Source of the DNA: Paludisphaera mucosa | Lineage (GTDB): Bacteria > Planctomycetota > Planctomycetia > Isosphaerales > Isosphaeraceae | Assembly: GCF_029589435.1 (NCBI RefSeq) | Contig: NZ_JARRAG010000001.1 | Location: 424,808 to 488,807 of the forward strand | Length of the DNA: 64,000 bases | Reading direction: 5' to 3' | In this document: positions 10,121-30,371 of the stretch, in pieces | Layout of the letters: each line of letters begins with the position of its first letter | Position numbering within the stretch: position 1 is the first letter of the stretch | Notes under the pieces: generated by a model | Seen by the model: the letters and a program-made list of their open reading frames with translations, nothing else | What the model was told of the DNA's origin: nothing | Databases searched by the model: none | Translations under genes and position numbers: made by a program

Positions 10121-11650
10121 ATGGCGACCTTCCGCATCGACGCGCTCGGTGAGACGCCGGCCCGGCTTCGCTCCTGGCTCGATCGCGCCCGCAAGGCGAC
10201 GGCCGGCCGATCCGCGCCCGTGCGGCTCGGCCTGCTCGCGGTTTTGGCCGGCGGGGTCGCCGTGGCCGCCTGCCTGGCGGCCTGGTCGATCGCCCCGGCC
10301 GAGCGGGTCCTGCTGGCCTCGGGGCGGTCCTTCCGACAGGACGACCTGGACAGGGTCGAGCGGGCGCTGCGGGCCCAGAACATCGACTACAAGCTCGACG
10401 AGCGCCGCGTGAGCGTCGCCGGCCGCTCGGCCGACGCCGCCTCGGCGATCGTCGCCAAGCTCGACCTCGGCCCGCGGTCGCTCGACGAGCTGCGCGACGG
10501 CGCCGCCGCCTCGTCGTTCTGGGAGACGCCCCGCGACAAGGAGGAGCGCGCCCAGCGCGAGCGCGCCAAGGTCTTCGAGTCGATGATCGACGACCTGCCG
10601 GGCGTGGAAAGCTCCTTCGTCTGGATCAGCCGCGAGCGCCAGCGCGGGGTGCTGCGGCCGGCGACGCGCACGACGGCCCTGGTGCGGGTGCAGGCCGAAG
10701 GGGGCCGCGAGCTGCCGCCGAGCACGGTCGAGTCGATCACCTCGATCGTCACCGCGGCCGAGCCGGGCCTGACGCGGCAGTCGTTCACCGTCATGGACCG
10801 CGAGGGCCGCCTCTACCGCGACGCCGGCAACCCGGCCCTGACCGCGCTCTCGAACAACCGGGCCCGCGAGGAGGACCTGAGCCGCCGGATCCTCGACAAG
10901 CTCGCCTGGATCAAGGACGTCCGCGTCACCGTCAAGCTCGAAGACCCGCCGGCCGCCCCCCAGCCGGTCGCCGTCGCCGTCGCGGTCGAGCCGGCCCCGC
11001 GCCGCGAGCCCGAGGTCGTCCCGGCCCCGCCGACGATGTCGGTCGGCCTCAACCGCGCGATGGAGCTGGGCCCGGATGACGAGGCCCCCGCGGCCGAGGC
11101 GCCGGCCCCTGCGGCCGCCCCGCCGCCCGCGCCCCTTCGGCGACGCGGCGAGGTCTGGGTGCTCGTCCCCCGCAGCTACTATTACAACGCCGGGCTGCTC
11201 CCCGAGGGCGGGCAGACCTCGCACGAGGACCACCTCGCGCTGATGACCCGGACCAAGGCGCTGATCCGCAACGCGGTGCGGCTGGTGATCCCCGAGGCCG
11301 ACGGCGTCGACTGGGCGCCGACCGAGATCGACGACCTCCCCGACGAGCTGACGACCGACCGCGCGCCGGCCGACGCCGCGGGCGCCGGGCGGCGCACGGC
11401 CCGCGAATGGGCGATGGCCGGCGCGGCGGGCGCCGCCGCCGCCGCGATCGTGGCCCTCGGGACCTGGGTCTTCGGCGGCCGGCAGCCGTCGCGGCGGGCC
11501 TCCCCCGGCCGCGGCGACCTCCGCTACCACCGCGGGACGGCCGGCGCGCCGGCACCCACCGAGCGGGTCCTCGAATTCGTCCGCCGCAACCCCGAGACCG
11601 CCTTCAGCGTGCTCAACCGCTGGACGACCCAGGGAGGGGGAAGGTCATGA
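10121..11650 (+). CDS. fliF: Flagellar MS-ring protein FliF
   Basis: FliF forms the inner-membrane ring on which the export gate and FliG sit. The 509-aa product (usual 530-570) has a first membrane helix at about 34-56, a periplasmic part with the YscJ/FliF ring folds (LASGRSFRQDDLDRVERAL, then VFESMIDDLPGVESSFVWIS), a Pro/Ala-rich linker, and a second membrane helix near EWAMAGAAGAAAAAIVALG. The cytoplasmic tail VLEFVRRNPETAFSVLNRW matches the FliF tail that binds the N-terminal domain of FliG, so this contact seems kept. The stop overlaps fliG by ATGA. Confidence 0.87.
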   Translation: MATFRIDALGETPARLRSWLDRARKATAGRSAPVRLGLLAVLAGGVAVAACLAAWSIAPAERVLLASGRSFRQDDLDRVERALRAQNIDYKLDERRVSVAGRSADAASAIVAKLDLGPRSLDELRDGAAASSFWETPRDKEERAQRERAKVFESMIDDLPGVESSFVWISRERQRGVLRPATRTTALVRVQAEGGRELPPSTVESITSIVTAAEPGLTRQSFTVMDREGRLYRDAGNPALTALSNNRAREEDLSRRILDKLAWIKDVRVTVKLEDPPAAPQPVAVAVAVEPAPRREPEVVPAPPTMSVGLNRAMELGPDDEAPAAEAPAPAAAPPPAPLRRRGEVWVLVPRSYYYNAGLLPEGGQTSHEDHLALMTRTKALIRNAVRLVIPEADGVDWAPTEIDDLPDELTTDRAPADAAGAGRRTAREWAMAGAAGAAAAAIVALGTWVFGGRQPSRRASPGRGDLRYHRGTAGAPAPTERVLEFVRRNPETAFSVLNRWTTQGGGRS

Positions 11651-12285
11651 ACGCGTCGACCCCGTCCGCCCGTCCGAGCCACCGCCGCGACGCCGGCGCC
11701 GAGCCGTCGCGCGACGACCTCGACGCGCCCGCCGAAGCCCTGGGCCCGGCCCCCGCGGCCGCCGAGGCCCCGTCGACGGCCTCGATCCCGGCCCTGCGCA
11801 AGGCGGCCATCGTCCTCGTCAGCCTGGAGCAGTCGCTGTCGACCCAGATGCTCGCGCACCTCGACCGCGACGCCGTCGAGGCCGTGACCTGGGAGATCGC
11901 CCGCATGGAGCGCGTCGACCCGGCCGAGCAGGCCGTCGTCCTGGAGGAGTTCCTCCGCCTCGGCCTGCGGCGCCTCTGCTTCGTCTTCGAAGACCTGCTC
12001 CGCATGGGCGACCGCGAGATCCGCGCCGCCTTCCGCGGCGAGGACGCCGAGGCCTGGGCCCTGGCCCTCGCCGGCTCGGCCCCGCCGCTCCGCGCCAAGG
12101 TGCTCGGCGCCCTGAACGCCTCGGCCGCCCACACGCTCCAGCGCCACCTGGAGAACCTCGGCCCGTTCCGGCTCTCCGACACGGAGGTCGCGCAGGTCGA
12201 GATCGCCGAACGGCTCCGGATCCTCTACGACCAGGGCGCGATCGACCTGCCCGATCCCAGCGGCCGCGAGGAAGTGCTGGTCTGA
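11647..12285 (+). CDS. fliG: Shortened FliG: N- and C-terminal domains only
   Basis: FliG is the switch protein that links FliF to FliM and receives torque from the stator. This copy has 212 aa against about 330 in the family. Residues 1-47 are low complexity, 48-103 match FliG_N (RKAAIVLVSLEQSLSTQML), and 110-200 match FliG_C (FVFEDLLRMGDREI, then LGPFRLSD). The middle domain with the EHPQ motif that binds FliM is absent. Aligned by eye to E. coli FliG, torque residues K264, R281, D288 and D289 correspond to A142, S159, R166 and H167; only R297 is kept (R175). The gene is translationally coupled to fliF, which supports its identity. A canonical role in rotation is doubtful. Confidence 0.82.
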   Translation: MNASTPSARPSHRRDAGAEPSRDDLDAPAEALGPAPAAAEAPSTASIPALRKAAIVLVSLEQSLSTQMLAHLDRDAVEAVTWEIARMERVDPAEQAVVLEEFLRLGLRRLCFVFEDLLRMGDREIRAAFRGEDAEAWALALAGSAPPLRAKVLGALNASAAHTLQRHLENLGPFRLSDTEVAQVEIAERLRILYDQGAIDLPDPSGREEVLV

Positions 12286-12351
12286 AACCGCCCGAACGAA
12301 CGTCACCACGCCCGGCCCGCCGACAACCCGCCGCGCACGAAGGACCCTCGC

Positions 12352-12855
12352 ATGGCTCGAGCCAAGGCCCCCATCCTGATCCTCGCCCTGATGCTGGCGA
12401 CCGCCCCGGCCGTCCGGGCGCAGGACGCGGCGCCCGATTCGAAGACGGCCCGGCCGACGCTCGCGAGCAAGCGGGCCCGGACGTCCTTCGCCCCCGTCTC
12501 GCAGAGCTGGTGGCTGGGGACGGCCTTCATGATCCTGGTCCTGGGCGTCGCCGGGGCGGTCTGCATCGCCGCGAAGCACCAGGGCGCCGGCAACTCGCCG
12601 GTCAAGCTCCAGGTCGTCGGCCGCGTCGCGCTCCCGCCCAAGCACGCCGTCTTCGCCGTCAAGGCCGGCGGCCGCACGCTCCTGATCGGCACCGGCCCCC
12701 AGGGCGCCCCTTCGCTCCTCGGCGAGCTGGAGGACGACGAGCCGGACGCCACCACCTCGACCCTGGCCCGCGTCGACGCGGCGGCCCCCCTCGCGTCCCG
12801 CCGCCCGATCCCCGCGCCCGGCCGCTTCGACGTCCGGATCGGAGACGAATCATGA
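12352..12855 (+). CDS. fliO: FliO-like flagellar export gate assembly protein
   Basis: FliO helps FliP form its ring in the export gate. The 167-aa product starts at ATG 12352 and shows a signal-like N-terminus ending VRAQD, a membrane helix near WWLGTAFMILVLGVAGAVCIA and a cytoplasmic domain VVGRVALPPKHAVFAVKAGG followed by LLIGTG, the FliO hallmark. The position directly before fliP supports the call, since FliO is weakly conserved. The last 40 residues are low complexity. Confidence 0.75.
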   Translation: MARAKAPILILALMLATAPAVRAQDAAPDSKTARPTLASKRARTSFAPVSQSWWLGTAFMILVLGVAGAVCIAAKHQGAGNSPVKLQVVGRVALPPKHAVFAVKAGGRTLLIGTGPQGAPSLLGELEDDEPDATTSTLARVDAAAPLASRRPIPAPGRFDVRIGDES

Positions 12856-12885
12856 CGGGACGTCAGGCGGCGGACTGCGGCGTTT

Positions 12886-13089
12886 CTCCTTCTCCCCTCC
12901 TGGGAGAAGGTGCCCCGCAGGGGCGGATGAGGGGGCGGCTCGCCGCGGCTCCGCGTCCCCGCGCGGGATTCGACGGTCCCCCTCATCCGGCCTTCGGCCA
13001 CCTTCTCACGCGAGGGGAGAGGGACGTTGCTCGACGGCTGCCTTGTTCATCCGGTCCTTCGGGCCACCTTCCCCGCCGAGGGGGGAAGG
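12886..13089. repeat. REPIN-like palindromic repeat cluster (three arms) between fliO and fliP
   Basis: Arm one (12886-12935) reads CTTCTCCCCTCCTGGGAGAAGG and then a GC hairpin ending GATGAGGGG. Arm two (12978-13023) is its inverted counterpart, starting CCCCTCATCCGGCC and ending GAGGGGAGAGGG. A partial third arm (13046-13089) repeats the arm-two order. Each arm can fold on itself and arms one and two can pair. Related arms lie at 32276-32441. This is the structure of REP/REPIN elements that are moved by a RAYT transposase elsewhere in a genome. The right end abuts fliP. Confidence 0.75.
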
Positions 13090-13094
13090 CCCTT

Positions 13095-13913
13095 ATGGGC
13101 GGGCTCCTGCTGCTCTTCCTCACGATCGCCGGGCCTTGCTTCGCGCAGGCCCCGACGGGGGCGGGACGCAAGACGGTGACGCGCCTGAACGAGCCGGCCG
13201 CGGTCACGGAGCCGGCGTCGGCCGCCGAGAAGCCGGCGCCCGCGTTCAACCCGGCCGACGCGGCCCGCACGGTGCAGTCGATCGTCCTCTTCGGCGCGGT
13301 CTCGCTGGCGCCGGTCGCGCTCCTGATGATCACGCCGTTCGTGCGGATCAACATCGTCCTGATCCTGCTCCGGCAGGCGCTCGGCAGCCCGCAGGTGCCC
13401 GGCAATCAGGTGCTGACGGCGTTGGCCCTCTTGCTCAGCGCGCTGATCATGCGTCCGGTTGCCGAGCGGGTGTACGCCGACGCGGTCCAGCCCTACGTCG
13501 CCGGCCGGACGGGCGCGGTCGAGGCCTGGAATGCGGGCTCGGCCCCGATCAAGACGTTCATGGTCGACCAGATCGTCATGACGAATCATCAGGACTACCT
13601 GACGACCCTCCACGATCGCTCCCGCCCCGCCACCCCCGGCGCGGCCCAGCCGGAACGCCCGGAGGACTTCGCGATCGGCGTCGTCGCGCCGGCGTACATC
13701 CTCAGCGAGCTGACGACCGCCCTGAAGATCGGTTTCATGCTCTATCTGCCGTTCCTGGTGATCGACCTGGTGGTCTCGGCGGTCCTGGCGGCGATGGGGC
13801 TGTTCATGCTGCCGCCGACGCTGATCTCGACCCCCGCGAAGCTCATCGTCTTCGTCCTGGCCGACGGCTGGCTGCTCGTGGCCGACATGCTCCTCGCCGG
13901 CTTCTCGGCGTAG
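13095..13913 (+). CDS. fliP: Flagellar export gate protein FliP
   Basis: FliP is the main pore-forming subunit of the FliP5Q4R1 export gate. The 272-aa product has a signal peptide (MGGLLLLFLTIAGPCFA), then four membrane segments with the family blocks ITPFVRINIVLILLRQALG, NQVLTALALLLSALIM, the AYILSELTTALKIGF box and FVLADGWLLVADML. The ATG at 13095 is chosen because it gives the cleavable signal and follows GGGGGAAGG, five bases away, which belongs to the right end of the REPIN-like repeat. The frame is open upstream but through repeat DNA. Confidence 0.93.
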   Translation: MGGLLLLFLTIAGPCFAQAPTGAGRKTVTRLNEPAAVTEPASAAEKPAPAFNPADAARTVQSIVLFGAVSLAPVALLMITPFVRINIVLILLRQALGSPQVPGNQVLTALALLLSALIMRPVAERVYADAVQPYVAGRTGAVEAWNAGSAPIKTFMVDQIVMTNHQDYLTTLHDRSRPATPGAAQPERPEDFAIGVVAPAYILSELTTALKIGFMLYLPFLVIDLVVSAVLAAMGLFMLPPTLISTPAKLIVFVLADGWLLVADMLLAGFSA

Positions 13914-13936
13914 CGGAAAGGGAAAGGAGGCCCCGC

Positions 13937-14203
13937 GTGGACGTCAACCAGGCCCTCGATTGGACGCGCGAGGCGCTCCGGCTCACCCTGCTGCTCGGCG
14001 GCCCCTTGCTGGCCGCGGCCCTGGTGGTCGGGCTGGCGGTGAACATCCTCCAGACGCTGACCCAGCTCAACGAGCCGGTCGTCGGCCTGGTGCCCCGGCT
14101 GGTGGCGGTGATCGTGGCGACGCTGATCCTGCTCCCCTGGCTGGCCGCCCGCTGGATCGACTTCACGGTCGACCTGATCGGCTCGATCCCGGACATGCTC
14201 TAG
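13937..14203 (+). CDS. fliQ: Flagellar export gate protein FliQ
   Basis: The 88-aa product has two membrane helices, as in all FliQ/SctS proteins (typically 86-90 aa). Family signatures are LTLLLGGPLLAAALVVGLAV and NILQTLTQLNEPVVGLVPRL. The start is GTG 13937 behind a strong AAAGGAGG at 13923-13930. It lies between fliP and fliR in the usual order, with 23-base gaps, consistent with one operon. Confidence 0.93.
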   Translation: MDVNQALDWTREALRLTLLLGGPLLAAALVVGLAVNILQTLTQLNEPVVGLVPRLVAVIVATLILLPWLAARWIDFTVDLIGSIPDML

Positions 14204-14227
14204 TCTCGATGCGAGGGCCCGGCCGCG

Positions 14228-14995
14228 ATGGGCGACATCCCGTTCGACGTCGGCTGGTACACCGCGAACGCGGCGGCGTCCGCCCTGATCGCGGCCCGCG
14301 CGGCGGGCGTCTGCTTCACGGCCCCGGTCCTCGCCGCGCCCGGGATCGACTGGCGATTCCGCGTCGTGGCGGCCCTGGCGCTCGGGGCCTGGATGACGCC
14401 CCTGGCCGCGGCGACGGTCGCCTCGCCCGCGTCGCCGTTCGGCCTCGGCTGGCTGGTCGTCAACGAGCTGCTGGTCGGGGGCCTGATCGGCCTGTCGGCG
14501 TCGCTCGTCGTCGCCGGCGCCAAGCAGGCGGGGGAACTCGTGGCGGTCCAGGCGGGGCTGGCGACGGCGTCGCTGTTCGACCCCGAGACGGGCGAGGAGC
14601 TGACGGCGCTCGGCCACCTCTACGGCCTGATCGCGATCGCGACCTTCCTGGCGATGGACGGCCCGCTGGTCATGGTCGACGCCCTGCTCCAGAGCTTCCA
14701 GACGATCCCGGCGGGCCGGCTCGTCTTCGAGCGGAGCACGGCCCAGGCGATGTTCGCGCAGGCGGCTGAGGCGCTCAAGCTGGCCCTCCGAGCCGCCGCG
14801 CCGCCGGCGGTCGCGCTGGCGACGGCCGGCGTGGCGCTCGGCTGGCTCGGCCGGATGGCCCCGAGCGTCCCCCTGATGGCGCTCTCGTTGCCGATCCGCG
14901 CGGCCCTGGGCGTGCTGCTCGTCATGGCGAGCCTCGCCGCGCTAGCCGCCTGTTTAGACGGCGCGTGGATCGCCTGGGCACGCGGCGGGCTTTGA
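14228..14995 (+). CDS. fliR: Flagellar export gate protein FliR
   Basis: FliR occupies the single-copy position at the tip of the export gate. The 255-aa protein has about six membrane segments, the conserved GLIGLSASLVVAGAKQAGEL region and the FDPETG-like segment after it. Length agrees with the family (about 260). The ATG at 14228 follows fliQ by 24 bases. Confidence 0.92.
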   Translation: MGDIPFDVGWYTANAAASALIAARAAGVCFTAPVLAAPGIDWRFRVVAALALGAWMTPLAAATVASPASPFGLGWLVVNELLVGGLIGLSASLVVAGAKQAGELVAVQAGLATASLFDPETGEELTALGHLYGLIAIATFLAMDGPLVMVDALLQSFQTIPAGRLVFERSTAQAMFAQAAEALKLALRAAAPPAVALATAGVALGWLGRMAPSVPLMALSLPIRAALGVLLVMASLAALAACLDGAWIAWARGGL

Positions 14996-15019
14996 CCGAG
15001 GCGGGAGGGATCGCGACCG

Positions 15020-16051
15020 ATGTCGGAAGACCGCACGCAGCCCGCATCCCCCCGACGCCGACAGCTCGCCCGCGAGCAGGGCCAGGCCGCGCACAGCCCC
15101 GAATTGACGGCCGCCGCCGGCTGGCTGGTCGCCGTCACGCTGCTGACGTGCTTCGGATCCTCCATGTCGGGATCGCTCGTCGACCTCGTGCGGTCACCGT
15201 TGGTCGGTCCCGCCGCGCGGCTGGAGGACGCCGTCGACCTCGCATGGCTGGTGCGTGACGCGGTTGTCGCCGTCGCGTCGCCCGTCGCCATTCTGCTCGT
15301 CGGCTTCGCGGCCGGCGCATTCGCGGCGCATCAGGGCCAGACCCGCGGCCTCTGGTCGCCCGCGCTCATCGCCCCCGACCCCTCGCGGCTCTGGCGCGTC
15401 GGCCGCGGCGGCGGGATCGGCGCCGGCGTGGAGCGCAGCGTCTGGTCGGTCGTGAAGGCCCTGATCCTGGCGAGCGTGGTCGTCTGGGCCGTCCGCTCGC
15501 GCTGGGGCGCCCTGCAAGGTCTGAGCTTCCTCGACTTCCCCGACGCCGCGCGGGGGGCCTTGTCGATCCTCCTCGCCCCGGCGTGGGCGCTGGCGGCGGC
15601 GATGCTCGCCGTGGGGGTCGTCGACTACGGGCTGCGGTCCGCCCGATTCGAGGCCATGCTGCAGACGACGCCCGAGGAGCAGCGCGAGGACCTGCGGACG
15701 ATCGAGGGCGATCCCAAGGCCCGCGCCTCGCGGCGTCGGCTCGCCCAGGCGTGGCGCGACGGAACGCCCGAGCTGCTCGAAGGCGCCTCGCTCGTCCTGC
15801 TGGGCGACGCCGGCCTGGTGGTCGTGCTCGCCGGCGGCCCGCCGCCGCGCAAGGTCTTCGTGCGGGTGATCGGCCAGGGGAGGTCGGGCGGGTCGATCCG
15901 CAAGGCGGCCGTCCGGGCGAAGCTCCCGCAGCGCGACGCCGCGCAACTGGCCCTGCGGATCGCCTCGCGGGCGGAGGCCGCCTCGCCCCGGGCCGCGATC
16001 GCCGATCCCCTTCTGATCGCCCAGCTTCGCGCCGCGTGGCCGACCGCCTGA
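15020..16051 (+). CDS. flhB: FlhB-type export switch protein lacking the NPTH self-cleavage motif
   Basis: FlhB surrounds the gate and normally cleaves itself between Asn and Pro of NPTH to switch substrates from hook to filament. The 343-aa product has the family N-terminus RRRQLAREQGQAAHSPEL (13-30), four membrane segments (to about 205), and the EGDPKARASRRRLAQ linker (229-243). Where NPTH should be, in VVITNPTH-like context, the sequence is LVLLGDAGLVVVL with GDAG at 262-265. The rest of the C-domain is recognisable (ALRIA near 311, ADPLLIAQL near 328). Cleavage by the known mechanism needs the Asn and Pro, so it should not occur. It lies in the normal place between fliR and flhA. Confidence 0.87.
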   Translation: MSEDRTQPASPRRRQLAREQGQAAHSPELTAAAGWLVAVTLLTCFGSSMSGSLVDLVRSPLVGPAARLEDAVDLAWLVRDAVVAVASPVAILLVGFAAGAFAAHQGQTRGLWSPALIAPDPSRLWRVGRGGGIGAGVERSVWSVVKALILASVVVWAVRSRWGALQGLSFLDFPDAARGALSILLAPAWALAAAMLAVGVVDYGLRSARFEAMLQTTPEEQREDLRTIEGDPKARASRRRLAQAWRDGTPELLEGASLVLLGDAGLVVVLAGGPPPRKVFVRVIGQGRSGGSIRKAAVRAKLPQRDAAQLALRIASRAEAASPRAAIADPLLIAQLRAAWPTA

Positions 16052-16089
16052 TCTGGCGGTCGAAAGCGTCGGCCGCGGGCCTTTCGCAC

Positions 16090-16118
16090 TGGACAATCCG
16101 GGGCGTCGGAAGTAAGGT
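16090..16118 (+). promoter_or_regulatory. Possible promoter upstream of flhA
   Basis: TGGACA (16090-16095) and TAAGGT (16113-16118) are separated by 17 bases in the 226-base gap between flhB and flhA, the largest gap in the export operon. Both boxes are close to sigma-70 consensus. It would let flhA, flhF and the following small gene be transcribed separately. Confidence 0.33.
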
Positions 16119-16277
16119 CCCTGCACACATCACGCGGGCCGAATCCGGCACGCCGGGAGCATTCGATTCGAGCGGTCGGCCTGCCCCCGTCGGCGACGGG
16201 GAGGCCGGAGAGATCATGGCGAGGCGCGCCGCGACGGGTCGCGCGCCGTTCGGTCCGTCTCGTGTGGAGAGGAATGG

Positions 16278-18521
16278 ATGCCTCCCTCGACGTCCGGTAG
16301 TTCCGCCGCCTGGAGAGCCGCCTCGGGGCTGGTCTTGCCGATCACCATCGTCGGCGCCGTCCTCGTGTTCGTCGTGCCCGTCTCGCCCGACGTGCTCGAC
16401 CTGCTGCTCGCGGCCAACCTGACGCTGGCGGTCCTGGTGCTGCTGACGACGCTGGCGATCCGCTCGCCGCAGGAGTTCAGCGCCTTCCCGACGATCCTGC
16501 TGACCACGACGCTGACCCGGCTGGTGCTCAACGTCGCCACCACGCGGCTGATCCTGACCCGCGGCGGCGAGCACGGCGTCGACGCGGCCGGCACGGTCAT
16601 CCGGGCCTTCGGCGAGTTCGTGGCGCGGGACCAGGTGCTCGTCGGCGTGATCCTGTTCGTCATCCTGGTCGTCATCCAGTTCGTGGTCATCACGAAGGGG
16701 GCCACGCGGATCAGCGAGGTCGCCGCGCGGTTCATGCTCGACGGCCTGCCGGGCCGCCAGATGGCGATCGACTCCGACCTGCACGCCGGGCTCATCGACC
16801 AGCACCAGGCCCACGCCCGGCGCGACGAGGTCTATCGCCAGGCGGACTTCTTCGGGGCGATGGACGGCGCCGGCAAGTTCGTCCGGGGCGACGCGGTGGC
16901 GGGCGTGGTGATCCTGCTGGTGAACATCGCCGGCGGCCTGTTCATCGGCGTCGTCCAGAACGGGATGGACTTCGGCAAGGCCGTCGACGTCTTCACGAAG
17001 CTGACGATCGGCGACGGCCTGGTGAGCCAGGTGCCGGCGTTCCTGATCTCGCTGGCGGCCGGCCTGATCGTCACGCGGTCGTCGTCGGCCAGCGACCTGG
17101 GCCGCGACGTCGTCGGCCAGCTCACGCGGAACCCGAGCGTCCTGGGGGTCTCGTCGGCCTTCCTCGGGCTGCTCGCCTTCACGCCGCTCCCCAAGATCCC
17201 CCTGCTCACGATCGCGGCCGTCCTCGGCTGGCGGGCCTACCGCCTGCGCGGGACGGGCCCCGGCGAGATGGACGCCGAGCACCACGAGTCCCGCCCGGCC
17301 CCGCGCCGGGCCGCCCGCGCCGAGGAACCTCGCGCCGAGAACGAGCCGGGCCCGCGCCCGACGGCGACGGCGGCCGAGCCGACCCGCATCACGGGCGACG
17401 CGGCGTCGGACGACATGGAGAACCTGCTGCACGTCGACCTGCTGGAGCTGGAGATCGGCTATCGGCTCATCAGCCTGGCCGACTCGACTCGCGGCGGCAA
17501 CCTGCTGGAGCGGCTGCGGACCGTCCGCCAGGACGTGGCCCGCGAGCTGGGCCTGATCGTCCCCCAGGTCCGCATCCACGACGAGATCGGCCTCTCGGCG
17601 CACGAGTACCGCGTGAAGATCCGCGGGACCGTGGTCGGCGCGGGCTCGGCCTACGCCGGGCGGCTGCTGGCGATCCCGCCGGCCGGCCTGGGCGACCGCC
17701 CCGAGGGCCGCGAGGCCGTCGACCCCGCCACCGGTCAGGCCGCCGTCTGGATCCACGCCGAGGGCCGCGAGGTCGCCGAGCTGGCCGGCTGCAAGATCCT
17801 CGACGCGTCGGCCGTCGTCGCCGCCCACTTCGGCGAGATCGTCCGCAGCCACGCCGACGAGCTGCTCACCCGAGACCAGATCGAACGCCTCCTCGACCGC
17901 GTCCGGACCACGGCGCCCACGCTCGCGAACGAGGTCGTCCCCGGCCTGCTCCGGCCCGGCGAGCTGCAGCGCCTGCTGCAGAACCTGCTGCGCGAGCAGG
18001 TGAGCGTCCGCGACCTGGAGACGATCCTGGAGACGATGGCCGTCCACGCCGGCAAGCCGAAGGACGTCGAGTCGCTGACCGAGCTGGCGCGGCAGAGCCT
18101 GGCGCGGCAGATCACCGAGAGCCACCGCTCGACCGACGGCCGGCTCCGCGTCGTCACGCTCTCGCAGGACCTCAACACCCGGCTCACGATCGTGGCCGCG
18201 CAGTCCGAGGCGCACCCGTCGGAGGCCCTGGGCGACGAGACGGTCCGCAGCATCCTCCGCGCCGTGGCCCAGGGGGTCGGAGCCCTGATCGACGTCGGCC
18301 TGCCGCCGATCGTCCTGACCTCGGCCTCGGCCCGCGCCGTGCTCAAGGACCTGACCCGGGCCGACCTGCCCCGGCTGGTCGTCCTCAGCCAGCGCGAGAT
18401 CCCTCGCGACACGCCCGTCGAGGTGCTGGGGACGATCGTCGAGGAGCCGACCGAGGCCGACGAGCCGGCCGAGCCCGCCGTCGACCCGGTGACGTTCGCC
18501 ACGACCGAGGCGTTCGCATGA
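16278..18521 (+). CDS. flhA: Flagellar export protein FlhA
   Basis: FlhA forms the nonameric ring of the export apparatus that receives chaperone-substrate complexes and couples export to proton motive force. The 747-aa protein has about eight membrane helices in the first 340 residues, the family box TLTRLVLNVATTRLIL and the FHIPEP-type loop GRQMAIDSDLHAGLIDQ, then an acidic Arg/Ala-rich linker and the cytoplasmic domain beginning near DLLELEIGYRLISL. The family is about 690 aa; the surplus is in the linker. Start is ATG 16278 behind GAGAGGA. The stop overlaps flhF by ATGA. Unlike FliG and FlhB, I see no loss of key segments. Confidence 0.94.
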   Translation: MPPSTSGSSAAWRAASGLVLPITIVGAVLVFVVPVSPDVLDLLLAANLTLAVLVLLTTLAIRSPQEFSAFPTILLTTTLTRLVLNVATTRLILTRGGEHGVDAAGTVIRAFGEFVARDQVLVGVILFVILVVIQFVVITKGATRISEVAARFMLDGLPGRQMAIDSDLHAGLIDQHQAHARRDEVYRQADFFGAMDGAGKFVRGDAVAGVVILLVNIAGGLFIGVVQNGMDFGKAVDVFTKLTIGDGLVSQVPAFLISLAAGLIVTRSSSASDLGRDVVGQLTRNPSVLGVSSAFLGLLAFTPLPKIPLLTIAAVLGWRAYRLRGTGPGEMDAEHHESRPAPRRAARAEEPRAENEPGPRPTATAAEPTRITGDAASDDMENLLHVDLLELEIGYRLISLADSTRGGNLLERLRTVRQDVARELGLIVPQVRIHDEIGLSAHEYRVKIRGTVVGAGSAYAGRLLAIPPAGLGDRPEGREAVDPATGQAAVWIHAEGREVAELAGCKILDASAVVAAHFGEIVRSHADELLTRDQIERLLDRVRTTAPTLANEVVPGLLRPGELQRLLQNLLREQVSVRDLETILETMAVHAGKPKDVESLTELARQSLARQITESHRSTDGRLRVVTLSQDLNTRLTIVAAQSEAHPSEALGDETVRSILRAVAQGVGALIDVGLPPIVLTSASARAVLKDLTRADLPRLVVLSQREIPRDTPVEVLGTIVEEPTEADEPAEPAVDPVTFATTEAFA

Positions 18522-19651
18522 CCTTCGAACGGCCCGCGAGGCGGGCGACGGGGAGCGACCTGGAGGCCAGGACCTATCGCGGCCGGACGATGCGGGAGGC
18601 GTTGGCGCGGGTGCGCCGGGACCTCGGCGGCGACGCCGTGATCCTCGCCGCCCGCGAGGTCCGCCGCCGCCGGCTGTTCGGCCTCGGGCCGGGCGCGACG
18701 GTCGAGGTCGACGCCTCGTCGCCGACCGCCGACTGGGTCGCGGCCCCTCCGGAATCGCGGCCCCCGCGCGGACTGGGGACCGACCTGGGTCGCGTCCACG
18801 CGATGGTCGGCGCGCTGAGCCGCCGCGGCCTGATGGAACAATGGTCGCCCGACCTGCCCGCCGAGCTGGCCTCGGCCTACGCACGACTCCTGGAAGCCGA
18901 CGCGCCCGAGGCGTTCGCCCGGGCGCTCGTCCGCGAGGCCGCCGCCTCCGCCACGGCCGAGGACCTGTCGACCCCCGCCCCGGCCCGCGCGGCCGTCCGG
19001 CGCGTCCTGGAGGACGCGCTGGCCGTGGCCTCGCCGATCCGGGCGGTCTCGGGGACGCGGCGGGTCGTCGCCCTGGTTGGCCCGACCGGCGTCGGCAAGA
19101 CGACGACGATCGCCAAGCTCGCCGCGACGCTCAAGCTCCAGCAGGGCGTGCGCGTGGGCCTCCTCACGGTCGACGCCTACCGCATCGCGGCCGTCGAACA
19201 ACTCAAAACCTACGCCGACATCATCGACGTCCCGCTGGCGGCCGGCGACGACCCGGACTCGGCCCGCCGCGGGCTCGACGAACTCGGTCCGGTCGACGTG
19301 GTCCTGGTGGACACCGCCGGCCGGAGCCCCCGGGACGGCGAGAAGATCCGCGAGCTGGGCGAGCTGCTGGCTCGGCTGCGGCCCGACGAGGTCCACCTGG
19401 TCCTCAGCGCGGCGACGTCGGCGCGGGGCCTGGGCGCGGCGGCCGACCTGTTCGCCCCGGCGCGGCCGGACCGCTTGATCTTGACCAAGCTCGACGAAGC
19501 CGAGACCCTGGGGCCGCTCCTGGCGGTCCTGGGCCGGGCCGACCGCCCCGTCAGCTACCTGGCGACGGGGCAGGCCGTCCCGGACGACGTCGAAGCCGCC
19601 TCGCGGGGCCGCCTCGCCCGGCTGATCCTGGGCGAAGAACCGATCGCATGA
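18518..19651 (+). CDS. flhF: SRP-type GTPase FlhF
   Basis: FlhF is the third SRP-family GTPase and sets the place and number of flagella, dimerising on GTP. The 377-aa product has a basic N-terminal B domain (TYRGRTMREALARVRRDLG), a variable N domain and a C-terminal NG domain with GPTGVGKTTTIAKLAA, DAYRIAAVEQLKTYADI, DTAGRSP and TKLDEAETLG. These boxes separate it from FtsY and Ffh. It is coupled to flhA by ATGA overlap and is followed after 73 bases by the small gene at 19725 that carries the FlhF-activating motif. Confidence 0.93.
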   Translation: MTFERPARRATGSDLEARTYRGRTMREALARVRRDLGGDAVILAAREVRRRRLFGLGPGATVEVDASSPTADWVAAPPESRPPRGLGTDLGRVHAMVGALSRRGLMEQWSPDLPAELASAYARLLEADAPEAFARALVREAAASATAEDLSTPAPARAAVRRVLEDALAVASPIRAVSGTRRVVALVGPTGVGKTTTIAKLAATLKLQQGVRVGLLTVDAYRIAAVEQLKTYADIIDVPLAAGDDPDSARRGLDELGPVDVVLVDTAGRSPRDGEKIRELGELLARLRPDEVHLVLSAATSARGLGAAADLFAPARPDRLILTKLDEAETLGPLLAVLGRADRPVSYLATGQAVPDDVEAASRGRLARLILGEEPIA

Positions 19652-19724
19652 ACCCGGTCGCGGGCGCGCCGAAGCGTCGCCCTTCGCAGCGATTTCCCAC
19701 GAGGCCACCCTCCGGAGGCGTCCC

Positions 19725-19907
19725 ATGAACGACCAGGCCGAGAGCCTGAGACGACTGGTCCGGGCCCAGCGCGACTGGAAACGGATGACGACCGAGCCGC
19801 CGCAGCCGCGCCCGGCCTCCGAGCCGGCCGGGCGCGAGCCCTCGCCCGGCGTCGTCTGGGGCGTGGGACGCGGCCGCGGGCGCGGCGAGAAGCGCGGGCC
19901 GGATTGA
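19725..19907 (+). CDS. 60-aa protein with the FlhG-type FlhF-activating DQAxxLR helix, no ATPase domain
   Basis: The ATG at 19725 follows CCGGAGG by seven bases. The protein opens with MNDQAESLRRLVRAQ. This is the DQAxxLR motif found at the extreme N-terminus of FlhG/YlxH, where a short helix alone inserts into the FlhF GTPase and stimulates hydrolysis. In FlhG the motif precedes a MinD-like ATPase of about 250 residues; here it is followed only by a Pro, Arg and Gly-rich tail and a stop. The position, immediately after flhF and before the sigma-28 gene, is the usual place of flhG. I infer a stand-alone FlhF activator. No Walker A motif follows in any frame up to fliA. Confidence 0.72.
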   Translation: MNDQAESLRRLVRAQRDWKRMTTEPPQPRPASEPAGREPSPGVVWGVGRGRGRGEKRGPD

Positions 19908-20226: not shown

Positions 20227-21003
20227 ATGTCAACCAAGGTGGATGTGGATGTGACCGAACTCTGGCGGGAGTTCAAGGAACAGCCCACCACGGAGCTGCG
20301 GAACCAGCTGGTCGAGCGTTACTTGGCCCTCGTCAAGTACAACGCCGAGCGCATCTGGCAGCGGCTGCCCGAAGGGGTCGACCTGGACGACCTGATCTCG
20401 GCGGGCGTCTTCGGCCTGATGGACGCGATCGACGCGTTCGACTTGACCCGCGGCGTCAAGTTCGAGACCTACTGCGTACCCCGAATCCGCGGCGCCATGC
20501 TCGACGAGCTGCGCACCATGGACTGGGTGCCCCGGCTGGTGCGCTCCAAGGCCACCAAGATGGAAGAGGCCCGCAAGGAGCTGGAGGCCCGCCACGGCCG
20601 CCCGCCCACGGGTCCCGAGCTGGCCGAGCGGCTCGGCCTGCCGATGGAGGAGTTCGAGAAGATGGCGATCGACGCCAACGCCGTCGGCCTCATCAGCCTG
20701 AACAAGAAGTGGTACGAGACCGACAGCTACAAGGACGTCCGCGAGATCGACATCCTCGAGGACAAGAAGGGGGAGGACCCCACCCGGCGGCTCCAGCGCA
20801 AGGACCTGATGCGCATGGTGACCAAGGGGCTCAACCGCAACGAGCGCCTCATCATCATCCTCTATTATTATGAAGAACTGACGATGAAAGAGATCGGCGC
20901 GACGCTCGACCTGAGCGAGTCGCGGGTCTCTCAGATGCACTCGTCGATCATCCAGCGGCTGCAGTCGCAGCTCTCCTTCCGCCGCCCCGAGTTCGGCACC
21001 TGA
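20227..21003 (+). CDS. fliA: RNA polymerase sigma-28 factor FliA/WhiG type
   Basis: The 258-aa product is a group 3 sigma factor with region 2 (RYLALVKYNAERI, DLDDLISAGVFGLMDAIDAFD, FETYCVPRIRGAMLDELR), region 3 (GRPPTGPELAERLGL) and a region 4 helix-turn-helix (LTMKEIGATLDLSESRVSQ). The ending MHSSIIQRLQSQL is typical of FliA. In flagellated bacteria it drives late genes such as flagellin and is held by FlgM; no flgM is seen here. The ATG at 20227 is preceded by ACGGAGGTCAGG. Confidence 0.93.
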   Translation: MSTKVDVDVTELWREFKEQPTTELRNQLVERYLALVKYNAERIWQRLPEGVDLDDLISAGVFGLMDAIDAFDLTRGVKFETYCVPRIRGAMLDELRTMDWVPRLVRSKATKMEEARKELEARHGRPPTGPELAERLGLPMEEFEKMAIDANAVGLISLNKKWYETDSYKDVREIDILEDKKGEDPTRRLQRKDLMRMVTKGLNRNERLIIILYYYEELTMKEIGATLDLSESRVSQMHSSIIQRLQSQLSFRRPEFGT

Positions 21004-26918: not shown

Positions 26919-29900
26919 TCAGTCGAGGAAGAGGCCGCTGAGGACGGCGTTGACGCCTGCGGTCCTGGTGATGCGGAGCTGGACGCGTCCGGCGAGCGAC
27001 CAGGAGAGGTAGAGGCCGTCGTGGAACGAGGCGACGGTGCGGGAGTCGAGCAGGGCGCCGGTGTCGGCGTCGAGGACGTCGACCCGCTGGGAGCGGGCGG
27101 AGCCGTCCCAGTCGACGAAGTAGAGGCCGACGGTGCGGGGCTGCGCGCCCAGGGAGAGGGTGGCGGAGAAGGCGGAGGCGGAGTACCAGGTGGCGGCGGT
27201 CCGGCCGGTGCCGGCGGGGTCCTGCAGGGCGCGGACGTCGGCGGAGCCGGCGGCCCAGGTGTAGCTGGAGGCGGAGGCGAGGGCGAGCGAGACGCCGGCG
27301 GGGAGCGAGGTGGCGGAGCCGGCCAGGGCGTAGCCGGCGGCGCCGCGGACGCCGCGCCAGGAGCCCTGGGTCGTCGCGTCGGCCCCCAGGAACGTCGCCG
27401 CGTTGCCCGCCTCGCCGTCGAGGAAGAGGCCGCTGAGGACGGCGTTGACGCCTGCGGTCCTGGTGATGCGGAGCTGGACGCGTCCGGCGAGCGACCAGGA
27501 GAGGTAGAGGCCGTCGTGGAACGAGGCGACGGTGCGGGAGTCGAGCAGGGCGCCGGTGTCGGCGTCGAGGACGTCGACCCGCTGGGAGCGGGCGGAGCCG
27601 TCCCAGTCGACGAAGTAGAGGCCGACGGTGCGGGGCTGCGCGCCCAGGGAGAGGGTGGCGGAGAAGGCGGAGGCGGAGTACCAGGTGGCGGCGGTCCGGC
27701 CGGTGCCGGCGGGGTCCTGCAGGGCGCGGACGTCGGCGGAGCCGGCGGCCCAGGTGTAGCTGGAGGCGGAGGCGAGGGCGAGCGAGACGCCGGCGGGGAG
27801 CGAGGTGGCGGAGCCGGCCAGGGCGTAGCCGGCGGCGCCGCGGACGCCGCGCCAGGAGCCCTGGGTCGTCGCGTCGGCCCCCAGGAACGTCGCCGCGTTG
27901 CCCGCCTCGCCGTCGAGGAAGAGGCCGCTGAGGACGGCGTTGACGCCTGCGGTCCTGGTGATGCGGAGCTGGACGCGTCCGGCGAGCGACCAGGAGAGGT
28001 AGAGGCCGTCGTGGAACGAGGCGACGGTGCGGGAGTCGAGCAGGGCGCCGGTGTCGGCGTCGAGGACGTCGACCCGCTGGGAGCGGGCGGAGCCGTCCCA
28101 GTCGACGAAGTAGAGGCCGACGGTGCGGGGCTGCGCGCCCAGGGAGAGGGTGGCGGAGAAGGCGGAGGCGGAGTACCAGGTGGCGGCGGTCCGGCCGGTG
28201 CCGGCGGGGTCCTGCAGGGCGCGGACGTCGGCGGAGCCGGCGGCCCAGGTGTAGCTGGAGGCGGAGGCGAGGGCGAGCGAGACGCCGGCGGGGAGCGAGG
28301 TGGCGGAGCCGGCCAGGGCGTAGCCGGCGGCGCCGCGGACGCCGCGCCAGGAGCCCTGGGTCGTCGCGTCGGCCCCCAGGAACGTCGCCGCGTTGCCCGC
28401 CTCGCCGTCGAGGAAGAGGCCGCTGAGGACGGCGTTGACGCCTGCGGTCCTGGTGATGCGGAGCTGGACGCGTCCGGCGAGCGACCAGGAGAGGTAGAGG
28501 CCGTCGTGGAACGAGGCGACGGTGCGGGAGTCGAGCAGGGCGCCGGTGTCGGCGTCGAGGACGTCGACCCGCTGGGAGCGGGCGGAGCCGTCCCAGTCGA
28601 CGAAGTAGAGGCCGACGGTGCGGGGCTGCGCGCCCAGGGAGAGGGTGGCGGAGAAGGCGGAGGCGGAGTACCAGGTGGCGGCGGTCCGGCCGGTGCCGGC
28701 GGGGTCCTGCAGGGCGCGGACGTCGGCGGAGCCGGCGGCCCAGGTGTAGCTGGAGGCGGAGGCGAGGGCGAGCGAGACGCCGGCGGGGAGCGAGGTGGCG
28801 GAGCCGGCCAGGGCGTAGCCGGCGGCGCCGCGGACGCCGCGCCACGAGCCCTGGGTCGCCGCGTCGGCCCCCAGGAACGTCGCCGCGTTGCCCGAGCGCG
28901 GCAGCGCCGCGCCGACGTTGAGCCGGCCGCCGGTGACGAGCTTGGTCTGCAAGGCGGGCACGGGCGTGGCCGTGCTCTCGATCTGCGTGATGATCTGCGT
29001 GTAGGTCCACTCGGGGTGGGCGGCGAGCAGCAGGGCCGCGGCGCCGCTGACGAACGGCGAGGCCATCGAGGTGCCGCTCTGGTAGCCGTAGCGGTTGCCC
29101 GGCAGCGTGCTCAGGATGCTCACGCCGGGCGCCGCGACGTCGACCGTCGTCCTGCCGTAGTTCGAGAAGCTCGCCAGCGTGCCGTCGGACGCGATCGCCG
29201 CGACCGAGACCACGTTGGGGCTCGCGGAGGACGCCGGCCAGAACGGGTTCACGTCGGTGTTCAAGGCGCTGTTGCCGGCGGCGGCGACGAAGACCGAGCC
29301 GGCCGCGGCCGCGGCGGCGATGGCCGAGTCGAAGGTCGTGCTGGCGGTCCCGGCGGCCCCGTAGCTGTTGTTCGAGACCCGCGCCCCGTGGGCGGCGGCG
29401 TAGAGGGTGGCCGCGGCCGCGTCGACGTCCGAGCCGCTGCCCGAGGAGTCGAGGAACTTCAGCGCCATGATCTGGACGCGCCAGTCCACGCCCGACACGC
29501 CCACCCCGTTGTTCCCGGTCGCGCCGATGATCCCCGCGACGTGGGTGCCGTGGCCGTGGTCGTCCAGGGGGTTGTTGTTGCCGGCGACGAAGTTCCAGCC
29601 GATGATGTCGTCCACGTACTGGTCGCCGTCGTCGGAGACGCCGTTGGACCACCCCCCCTGCCCGGAATCCGCCCCGCCGGGGAGCCGGCCCATGGAGACC
29701 AGCAGGTCGGAGCCCGTGATCAGGCCGTCGCCGTTCGAGTCGACGATCTTGCCGACCCCCTGGTTGGGCTTCGAGCCGCCGGGGGACGTGTAGTTGAGGT
29801 CGTAGAAGGTGATCAGGCCGTCGCCGTCGACGTCGGTCAGGTTGGCCCGGCGCGAGGCCGGGATCTCCGCCTGGTTGATCCACATGTTCTGGTACAGGTC

Positions 29901-30371
29901 GGGATGGTTGTAGTCGACCCCGGTGTCGACGACGGCCACCACGACCGTGGAGGAGCCGGTCGTGGCGTTCCAGGCCGTCGGGGCGTCGATGCCGGCGGTC
30001 CCGTTCAGCCCCCACTGGCTGTTGTCGACGTAGCCTGGGTCGTTCGGCGTCGCGTCGATGCTGAAGGTCTGGCTGGGCTCGACGTAGCCGAGGCCGGGCA
30101 GGACGGCCAGGCGTCCCGACAGCCGCCTCAGGGCCGTCGACGTGCCGGTCGCCTCGAGTACGCCGGGCAGCCCCGTGGGCTGGAGGGTCGCCCCGGCCCG
30201 CTCCGCCGCCGCGGCGAGGTCGGCCGTCGAGGCGTCCTTCACCTGCACGAGCAACGCCCCCGCCGACGTCGTGCTCAGGACCGTACGGGCCTCCAGCCGC
30301 TCGAAGTGGACCGTCCGGGTCCGCGACTGGCGGACGCCGCGCCGACGCCGATTCTCCGTCCGAATGCTCAT
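26919..30371 (-). CDS. Secreted subtilisin-like protease (S8) with LEPR-XLL-type motif and four 165-aa repeats
   Basis: 1150 aa. The N-terminus is Arg-rich and contains FERLEARTVLS (23-33), the LEPR-XLL-type motif of planctomycete surface proteins. The S8 triad is visible: D149 (VVDTGVDYNHPD), H274 (DHGHGTHVAG) and S435 (GTSMASP). Between Asp and His lie two EF-hand-like loops, VDGDGLITFYDL (181-192) and SNGDGLITGSDL (212-223), spaced like a dockerin pair. From 494 to the end are four copies of a beta-rich domain with TWAAGSADVRALQDPAGTGR and FVDWDGSARSQRVDVLDADT. That domain recurs in planctomycete secreted proteins; its ligand is unknown. No further anchoring motif follows the last copy. 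Confidence 0.88.
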   Translation of the reverse strand: MSIRTENRRRRGVRQSRTRTVHFERLEARTVLSTTSAGALLVQVKDASTADLAAAAERAGATLQPTGLPGVLEATGTSTALRRLSGRLAVLPGLGYVEPSQTFSIDATPNDPGYVDNSQWGLNGTAGIDAPTAWNATTGSSTVVVAVVDTGVDYNHPDLYQNMWINQAEIPASRRANLTDVDGDGLITFYDLNYTSPGGSKPNQGVGKIVDSNGDGLITGSDLLVSMGRLPGGADSGQGGWSNGVSDDGDQYVDDIIGWNFVAGNNNPLDDHGHGTHVAGIIGATGNNGVGVSGVDWRVQIMALKFLDSSGSGSDVDAAAATLYAAAHGARVSNNSYGAAGTASTTFDSAIAAAAAAGSVFVAAAGNSALNTDVNPFWPASSASPNVVSVAAIASDGTLASFSNYGRTTVDVAAPGVSILSTLPGNRYGYQSGTSMASPFVSGAAALLLAAHPEWTYTQIITQIESTATPVPALQTKLVTGGRLNVGAALPRSGNAATFLGADAATQGSWRGVRGAAGYALAGSATSLPAGVSLALASASSYTWAAGSADVRALQDPAGTGRTAATWYSASAFSATLSLGAQPRTVGLYFVDWDGSARSQRVDVLDADTGALLDSRTVASFHDGLYLSWSLAGRVQLRITRTAGVNAVLSGLFLDGEAGNAATFLGADATTQGSWRGVRGAAGYALAGSATSLPAGVSLALASASSYTWAAGSADVRALQDPAGTGRTAATWYSASAFSATLSLGAQPRTVGLYFVDWDGSARSQRVDVLDADTGALLDSRTVASFHDGLYLSWSLAGRVQLRITRTAGVNAVLSGLFLDGEAGNAATFLGADATTQGSWRGVRGAAGYALAGSATSLPAGVSLALASASSYTWAAGSADVRALQDPAGTGRTAATWYSASAFSATLSLGAQPRTVGLYFVDWDGSARSQRVDVLDADTGALLDSRTVASFHDGLYLSWSLAGRVQLRITRTAGVNAVLSGLFLDGEAGNAATFLGADATTQGSWRGVRGAAGYALAGSATSLPAGVSLALASASSYTWAAGSADVRALQDPAGTGRTAATWYSASAFSATLSLGAQPRTVGLYFVDWDGSARSQRVDVLDADTGALLDSRTVASFHDGLYLSWSLAGRVQLRITRTAGVNAVLSGLFLD
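26922..28901 (-). repeat. Four tandem 495-bp repeats inside the subtilase gene
   Basis: The same sequence begins at 26922, 27417, 27912 and 28407, giving an exact 495-bp (165-codon) period. By eye the copies are identical at DNA level, including third codon positions, apart from two substitutions near 28844 and 28859 in the copy next to the catalytic domain. Such identity points to recent duplication or ongoing gene conversion, and short-read assembly could miscount the copies. Confidence 0.93.

Follow-up and report, generated by a model that had tools for sequence, protein, structure and literature searches.

A small gene following flhF in Isosphaeraceae may encode FlhG reduced to a free FlhF-activating helix

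Previous work has identified the DQAxxLR helix of FlhG as a stimulator of FlhF and its glutamine as a co-catalytic residue, serving FlhF in the way that a cytidine of the SRP RNA serves Ffh-FtsY; flhF and flhG are described in a review as genes that consistently occur together (PMC12826062). In B. subtilis, hook distribution is unaffected by D65A, an FlhG substitution that prevents ATP hydrolysis, and is modestly affected by removal of the MTS, and the substitution Q8A in DQAxxLR resembles deletion of flhG; stimulation of the GTPase is the central function of FlhG in this bacterium (PMC12327844). In Shewanella, FliG is able to capture FliF once it is bound by the N-terminal domain of FlhF (PMC11236974). 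Non-flagellar membrane structures related to the fT3SS core have also been described (PMC9380563). The described members of the Isosphaeraceae all lack motile swarmer cells (PMC5352709). Among open-access papers dealing with DQAxxLR, we found none that describes a stand-alone helix gene.

The small gene and the cluster around it

In this study, we analysed a 64,000-nt stretch of the genome of the soil planctomycete Paludisphaera mucosa (hereafter the window); the genome is 8.2 Mb in size and complete by estimate. The features of the locus are listed in Table 1. The original prediction of a 60-codon DQAxxLR gene just after flhF was borne out by the open reading frame itself, its GGAGG box, a match to a helix profile (A2) and conservation in the family. 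The open reading frame translates to MNDQAESLRRLVRAQRDWKRMTTEPPQPRPASEPAGREPSPGVVWGVGRGRGRGEKRGPD and starts with MNDQAESLRRLVRAQ, which carries the FlhG enhancer-helix motif DQAxxLR. Codons 1 to 22 make up the conserved helix with this motif, and codons 23 to 60 encode a poorly constrained tail of Pro, Arg and Gly. The gene begins 73 nt after the flhF stop codon and is followed, after 320 nt, by a sigma-70-family gene. A G+A-rich box likewise lies 5′ of the start in its homologues. The N-terminus MNDQAESLRR was found in its own genome with E = 3.5e-10 by profile A2, in which the sequence itself is included, and no second DQAxxLR helix matched this profile at E ≤ 0.05 in that genome. The 60-aa protein matched no Pfam family, and no solved structure was matched in a sequence search of the PDB. 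A chance motif is ruled out by the family-wide conservation of the DQAxxLR start. A frameshift or assembly error is also ruled out, as the ATPase is absent from the syntenic place in five genomes with the short gene that are assembled into 3 to 9 contigs (G000, G001, G011, G028 and G031).

Table 1. Features of the flhF locus and the upstream cluster (positions in the window)
Feature	Position	Strand	Evidence or remark
fliF, MS-ring protein	10121..11650	+	Pfam YscJ_FliF, 2.7e-18
fliG (start estimated)	11647..12285	+	Pfam FliG_C, 1.3e-20; FliG_N, 8.6e-13
fliO	12352..12855	+	Pfam FliO, 3.4e-7
fliP (start estimated)	13095..13913	+	Pfam FliP, 5.2e-62
fliQ, 88 aa (start estimated)	13937..14203	+	ORF read by eye between fliP and fliR
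fliR	14228..14995	+	Pfam Bac_export_1, 9.6e-44
flhB, canonical NPTH autocleavage motif absent	15020..16051	+	Pfam Bac_export_2
flhA, export-gate gene	16278..18521	+	Conservation and position before flhF; presumed similarity to known FlhA
flhF, SRP-type GTPase, presumed partner	18518..19651	+	GPTGVGKTT, DAYR, DTAGR and TKLDE motifs intact
RBS region CCTCCGGAGG, holding the GGAGG box of the small gene	19711..19719	+	Sequence, compared across homologues
Putative stand-alone enhancer-helix gene (mini-FlhG)	19725..19907	+	60 codons; translation and 15 short homologues in the family
Sigma-70-family (FliA-like) gene, follows flhF-flhG in the family	20227..21003	+	Family synteny

The gene order upstream of the small gene is fliF-fliG-fliO-fliP-fliQ-fliR-flhB-flhA-flhF. 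FlhA is 54 to 86% identical over most of its length among the family loci. In our sample of 45 Isosphaeraceae genomes, flagellin (PF00669) was found in none, compared with 4 of 14 control genomes, and FliI (TIGR01026) reached the cut-off in none, again compared with four of the 14 controls. Rod/hook proteins (PF00460) were absent from the window's genome and matched in 3 of the 45 genomes. The NPTH motif was present in none of the family loci holding flhB but was present in a Phycisphaerales control (L082). Because flagellin and FliI are missing, rod/hook matches are few, NPTH is absent and motile swarmers are lacking, the cluster at 10121-19907 is better called a flagellum-derived export core, one without a filament. 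As to flagella, the family probably has nothing to count, and on the same evidence the original suggestion that FlhF would here be controlled without the MinD-like counting of flagella fails.

Some further features of these genomes are recorded here. The sigma-70-family gene is 91 to 98% identical among the genomes in which it is complete beside the short gene, even though there is no flagellin for it to transcribe. One FliM/N-type gene is present in 34 of the family genomes. The example at L136 (G000:C1:1644500-1649000), which lies far from the flagellar cluster, encodes a FliM/FliN-type protein (about 400 aa) that carries a SpoA (FliMN_C) domain; apart from it and fliG, no C-ring-like gene was found. 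A reading of this FliM/N-like gene for signs of a changed FlhG partner gave nothing decisive. Elsewhere in the window (26919-30371, minus strand) a large subtilisin-like protein is encoded; its C-terminal half is built from four copies, almost the same in sequence, of a repeat of about 170 residues and has the look of a recent duplication.

Short and full FlhG in the family

The short gene stands alone at the locus in 15 of the 45 family genomes (genera g1, g2, g6, g8, g12 and g14), and its products are 59 to 78 aa in length with the same start as full FlhG. In a sixteenth genome, G032 of the window's genus, the copy has decayed. Across most of the remaining genera, the place between flhF and the sigma gene is taken by a full flhG encoding about 300 residues. 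Its product has the same N-terminus as that of the short gene (MSDQADGLRQLVQAR), followed by an ATPase with KGGVGTS and DADLGLAN and, at the C-terminus, by an amphipathic segment (for example, RPGFFSALAARWALSRVAR). We take the full flhG to be ancestral because a full FlhG also follows flhF in one Pirellulaceae and one Phycisphaerales record. A DQAxxLR start was found at the syntenic place in five of the six genomes of the window's genus and, either alone or as the N-terminus of full FlhG, in 39 of the 41 family genomes with an examinable flhF. A search for helix-only genes outside the family, covering 249 genomes of the class, yielded no strong match, although the profile was trained on this family and distant versions could escape it.

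The best match to a full-FlhG profile (A1) in the window's genome was 1.4e-14, which is the background of ParA/MinD proteins, compared with less than 1e-99 for a typical FlhG. No FlhG ATPase was found in the 15 short genomes, whose best matches (1e-11 to 1e-16) also correspond to the general ParA/MinD background; in genomes with FlhG the same profile gave mostly 1e-100 to 1e-150, with 1.7e-56 in G004, which has a degenerate FlhG. A tblastn search for ATPase remnants 3′ of the short gene returned only weak, scattered, GC-rich matches, none of them convincing. These genomes are rich in MinD/ParA-type ATPases, as would suit a split FlhG whose ATPase is encoded elsewhere and acts in trans with the helix, but with the FlhG profile every ATPase of the 15 short genomes scored no higher than the general background of ParA proteins; such a split is highly improbable, and a FlhG located elsewhere was rejected on the same ground. 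The prediction that the ATPase is missing and that no normal flhG lies elsewhere thus holds, with the A1 matches at background and no second DQAxxLR.

In G004, the FlhG at L035 is of full length and has KGGVGTS and the DQAxxLR helix, and its DADLGLANIDLLCG switch region is gone. Judged from its sequence, this protein is probably an intermediate, a dead ATPase that still carries the helix.

Within the window's genus, codons 1 to 22 are under purifying selection (pN/pS 0.25, dN/dS 0.17) and the tail is nearly free (pN/pS 0.86, dN/dS 0.74). In a set of 16 representative sequences, some short and some full, residues D3, Q4, A5, L8 and R9 do not vary, a descriptive observation given that the representatives were chosen by the motif. 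The search of relatives for the small gene that had been proposed therefore gave a positive answer: the gene is conserved at the same spot and its helix is under purifying selection.

On a tree built from FlhA and FlhF, parsimony requires five changes to the short state (in g14, in g1 together with g2, in g12, in g6 and in g8), and the strongly supported branches alone force two. Forcing all short genomes into one clade lowered the lnL by 138.6 and was rejected (p-AU 7e-64). The reduction of FlhG thus apparently happened several separate times in the family. The DQAxxLR helix is retained in all five lineages of apparent ATPase loss. Three short genes have C-termini resembling the membrane-targeting segment of FlhG (G011, VGLFASLFARWAP; G007, LGLLAVFAARWSR; G003, IGVVMARVARWAF), with matches exceeding those of shuffled tails at p values, given per tail with 16 short and decayed tails tested, of 0.0005, 0.001 and 0.0065, respectively. 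In most of the 16 tails the match was below significance, and the tail of the window's gene gave no match against shuffled tails (p = 0.33). Since the C-terminal segment is kept in G011, G007 and G003, the ATPase was therefore lost from between the two ends there. The window's genus seems to have lost the membrane-targeting segment as well as the ATPase.

It could be argued that the small gene is the remnant of a dying flhG with no present function: the ATPase is gone, the tail evolves almost freely, the cells are non-motile and G032 has a decayed copy. However, a dN/dS of 0.17 for the helix within the genus, the persistence of the helix in every one of the five lineages, the G+A-rich box 5′ of the start in homologues and the fact that the one clearly decayed copy adjoins a decayed FlhF (see below) all speak against it, and we regard a dying remnant as quite unlikely. 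The reading we prefer, that FlhG has been reduced to its FlhF-activating helix, agrees with what was originally predicted and is supported by the absence of the ATPase and of a second DQAxxLR, by conservation and by selection.

FlhF and the proposed action of the helix

The FlhF of the window matches the SRP54 domain with 3.9e-41. We modelled its structure with AlphaFold with the helix tethered to it; in this construct the flhF stop (TGAA) was read as one four-base step and the intergenic DNA served as linker, purely as a device that makes no claim of frameshifting. The FlhF part of the model matches the FlhF structures 8r9r (best fold match, 1.8e-17), 2px0 and 2px3, confirming the predicted FlhF fold, and the helix is placed at 403-425 with moderate confidence.

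In G032, the helix motif reads DPAESLGRR where DQAESLRR is expected. At 11 sites that do not vary among the remaining genomes compared, the FlhF of this genome carries a different residue (the second-highest count is six), and these changes include R269A and A267P (both in DTAGR), A224G, Y232F and Q352P. Despite this decay of FlhF, the FlhA, FlhB and sigma proteins of G032 are 86, 72 and 98% identical to those of the window. In G012, a divergent FlhF-like protein that lacks DTAGR is encoded between flhA and the sigma gene, with no FlhG and no recognisable helix gene next to it; a possible relic of the helix (SDQAGRLVSRIV) overlaps the 3′ end of this divergent flhF (L050). Of the 41 genomes with an examinable FlhF, 39 keep both the arginine of DTxGR and the DQAxxLR helix and two have neither, a pairing expected by chance about once in 820 when relatedness is ignored. 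These data suggest that the helix and the active site of FlhF decay together, a case that rests on two genomes (G032 and G012), in one of which (G012) FlhF is very divergent.

The helix might bind FlhF as a stabiliser, an inhibitor or a localisation partner instead of activating its GTPase. Its link to catalysis comes from sequence evidence only, and the PDB search with the 60-aa protein offers no structural parallel. Nevertheless, all the helices compared carry the co-catalytic glutamine (PMC12826062) apart from the clearly decayed copy, and there the adjacent FlhF has lost its DTAGR arginine as well. We consider a non-activating partner unlikely, if slightly less so than a dying remnant. The small gene probably encodes a stand-alone enhancer helix, that is, FlhG minus the MinD-like ATPase in the middle of the gene, which would activate the FlhF of a filament-less export apparatus. 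Given the published stimulation by the helix and the D65A, MTS and Q8A results from B. subtilis, a free helix should manage the central job of FlhG.

According to the model that we propose, FlhF presumably places or builds a flagellum-derived apparatus without rod, hook or filament. In its GTP-bound form it would gather FliF-FliG and the FliPQR-FlhAB export gate. The DQAxxLR helix would then bind the GTP-loaded FlhF dimer, and its glutamine would complete the active site, so that GTP is hydrolysed, release follows and FlhF is reset. With no flagella to count and no regulatory circuit to gate, the ATPase may have become dispensable, and the GTPase-activating helix would be retained while FlhF still functions as a GTPase. 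Where the membrane segment is retained, the activator may stay permanently at the membrane; a soluble activator is expected for the window's genus. The broader statement, that FlhG was independently reduced about five times in one family to a free peptide activator resetting FlhF in the filament-less export machine of non-motile bacteria, has in our judgement an even chance of being correct.

Significance and comparison with known systems

The family may be seen as a natural experiment in which FlhG is taken apart: the ATPase half, to which the counting or gating of flagella is ascribed, would be dispensable in several lineages, and the other half, a helix of 20 residues, is kept. The helix is lost where the active site of FlhF decays, which fits the finding on GTPase stimulation in B. 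subtilis (PMC12327844). This suggests that the helix, and not the ATPase, is the part of FlhG that evolution keeps. If so, the small gene would represent a naturally evolved minimal FlhF switch made of one GTPase and one helix, and GTPase activation would be the irreducible core of FlhG. In addition, the locus suggests that bacteria lacking flagella have conserved a flagellum-derived export gate under the control of FlhF. The small proteins encoded by the short genes would be handy test proteins.

As in flagellar systems, FliF, FliG, FliO, FliP, FliR, FlhB, FlhA and FlhF are encoded together; unlike them, the family has no flagellin or FliI over the cut-off, rod/hook matches in just three genomes and an FlhB without NPTH. 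The small gene resembles those of FlhG/YlxH/FleN in its place, immediately 3′ of flhF and ahead of the sigma gene, and in encoding the N-terminal helix MxDQAxxLRxxV, and some of the related short genes retain a C-terminal membrane-targeting segment. It differs from them in having no MinD-like ATPase (KGGVGTS and the DAD switch), in its length (60 aa compared with about 300) and, in the window's genus, in having no membrane-targeting segment either. By analogy with the SRP RNA and the FlhG helix, the peptide would activate an SRP-type GTPase in the same way; unlike both, it is encoded by a free gene and is part of neither an ATPase nor an RNA. The FleN of Pseudomonas is likewise a FlhG with one half missing, but it is the mirror image of the small gene: FleN keeps the ATPase and reportedly lacks DQAxxLR (PMC12713375), whereas the small gene has kept the helix and dispensed with the ATPase.
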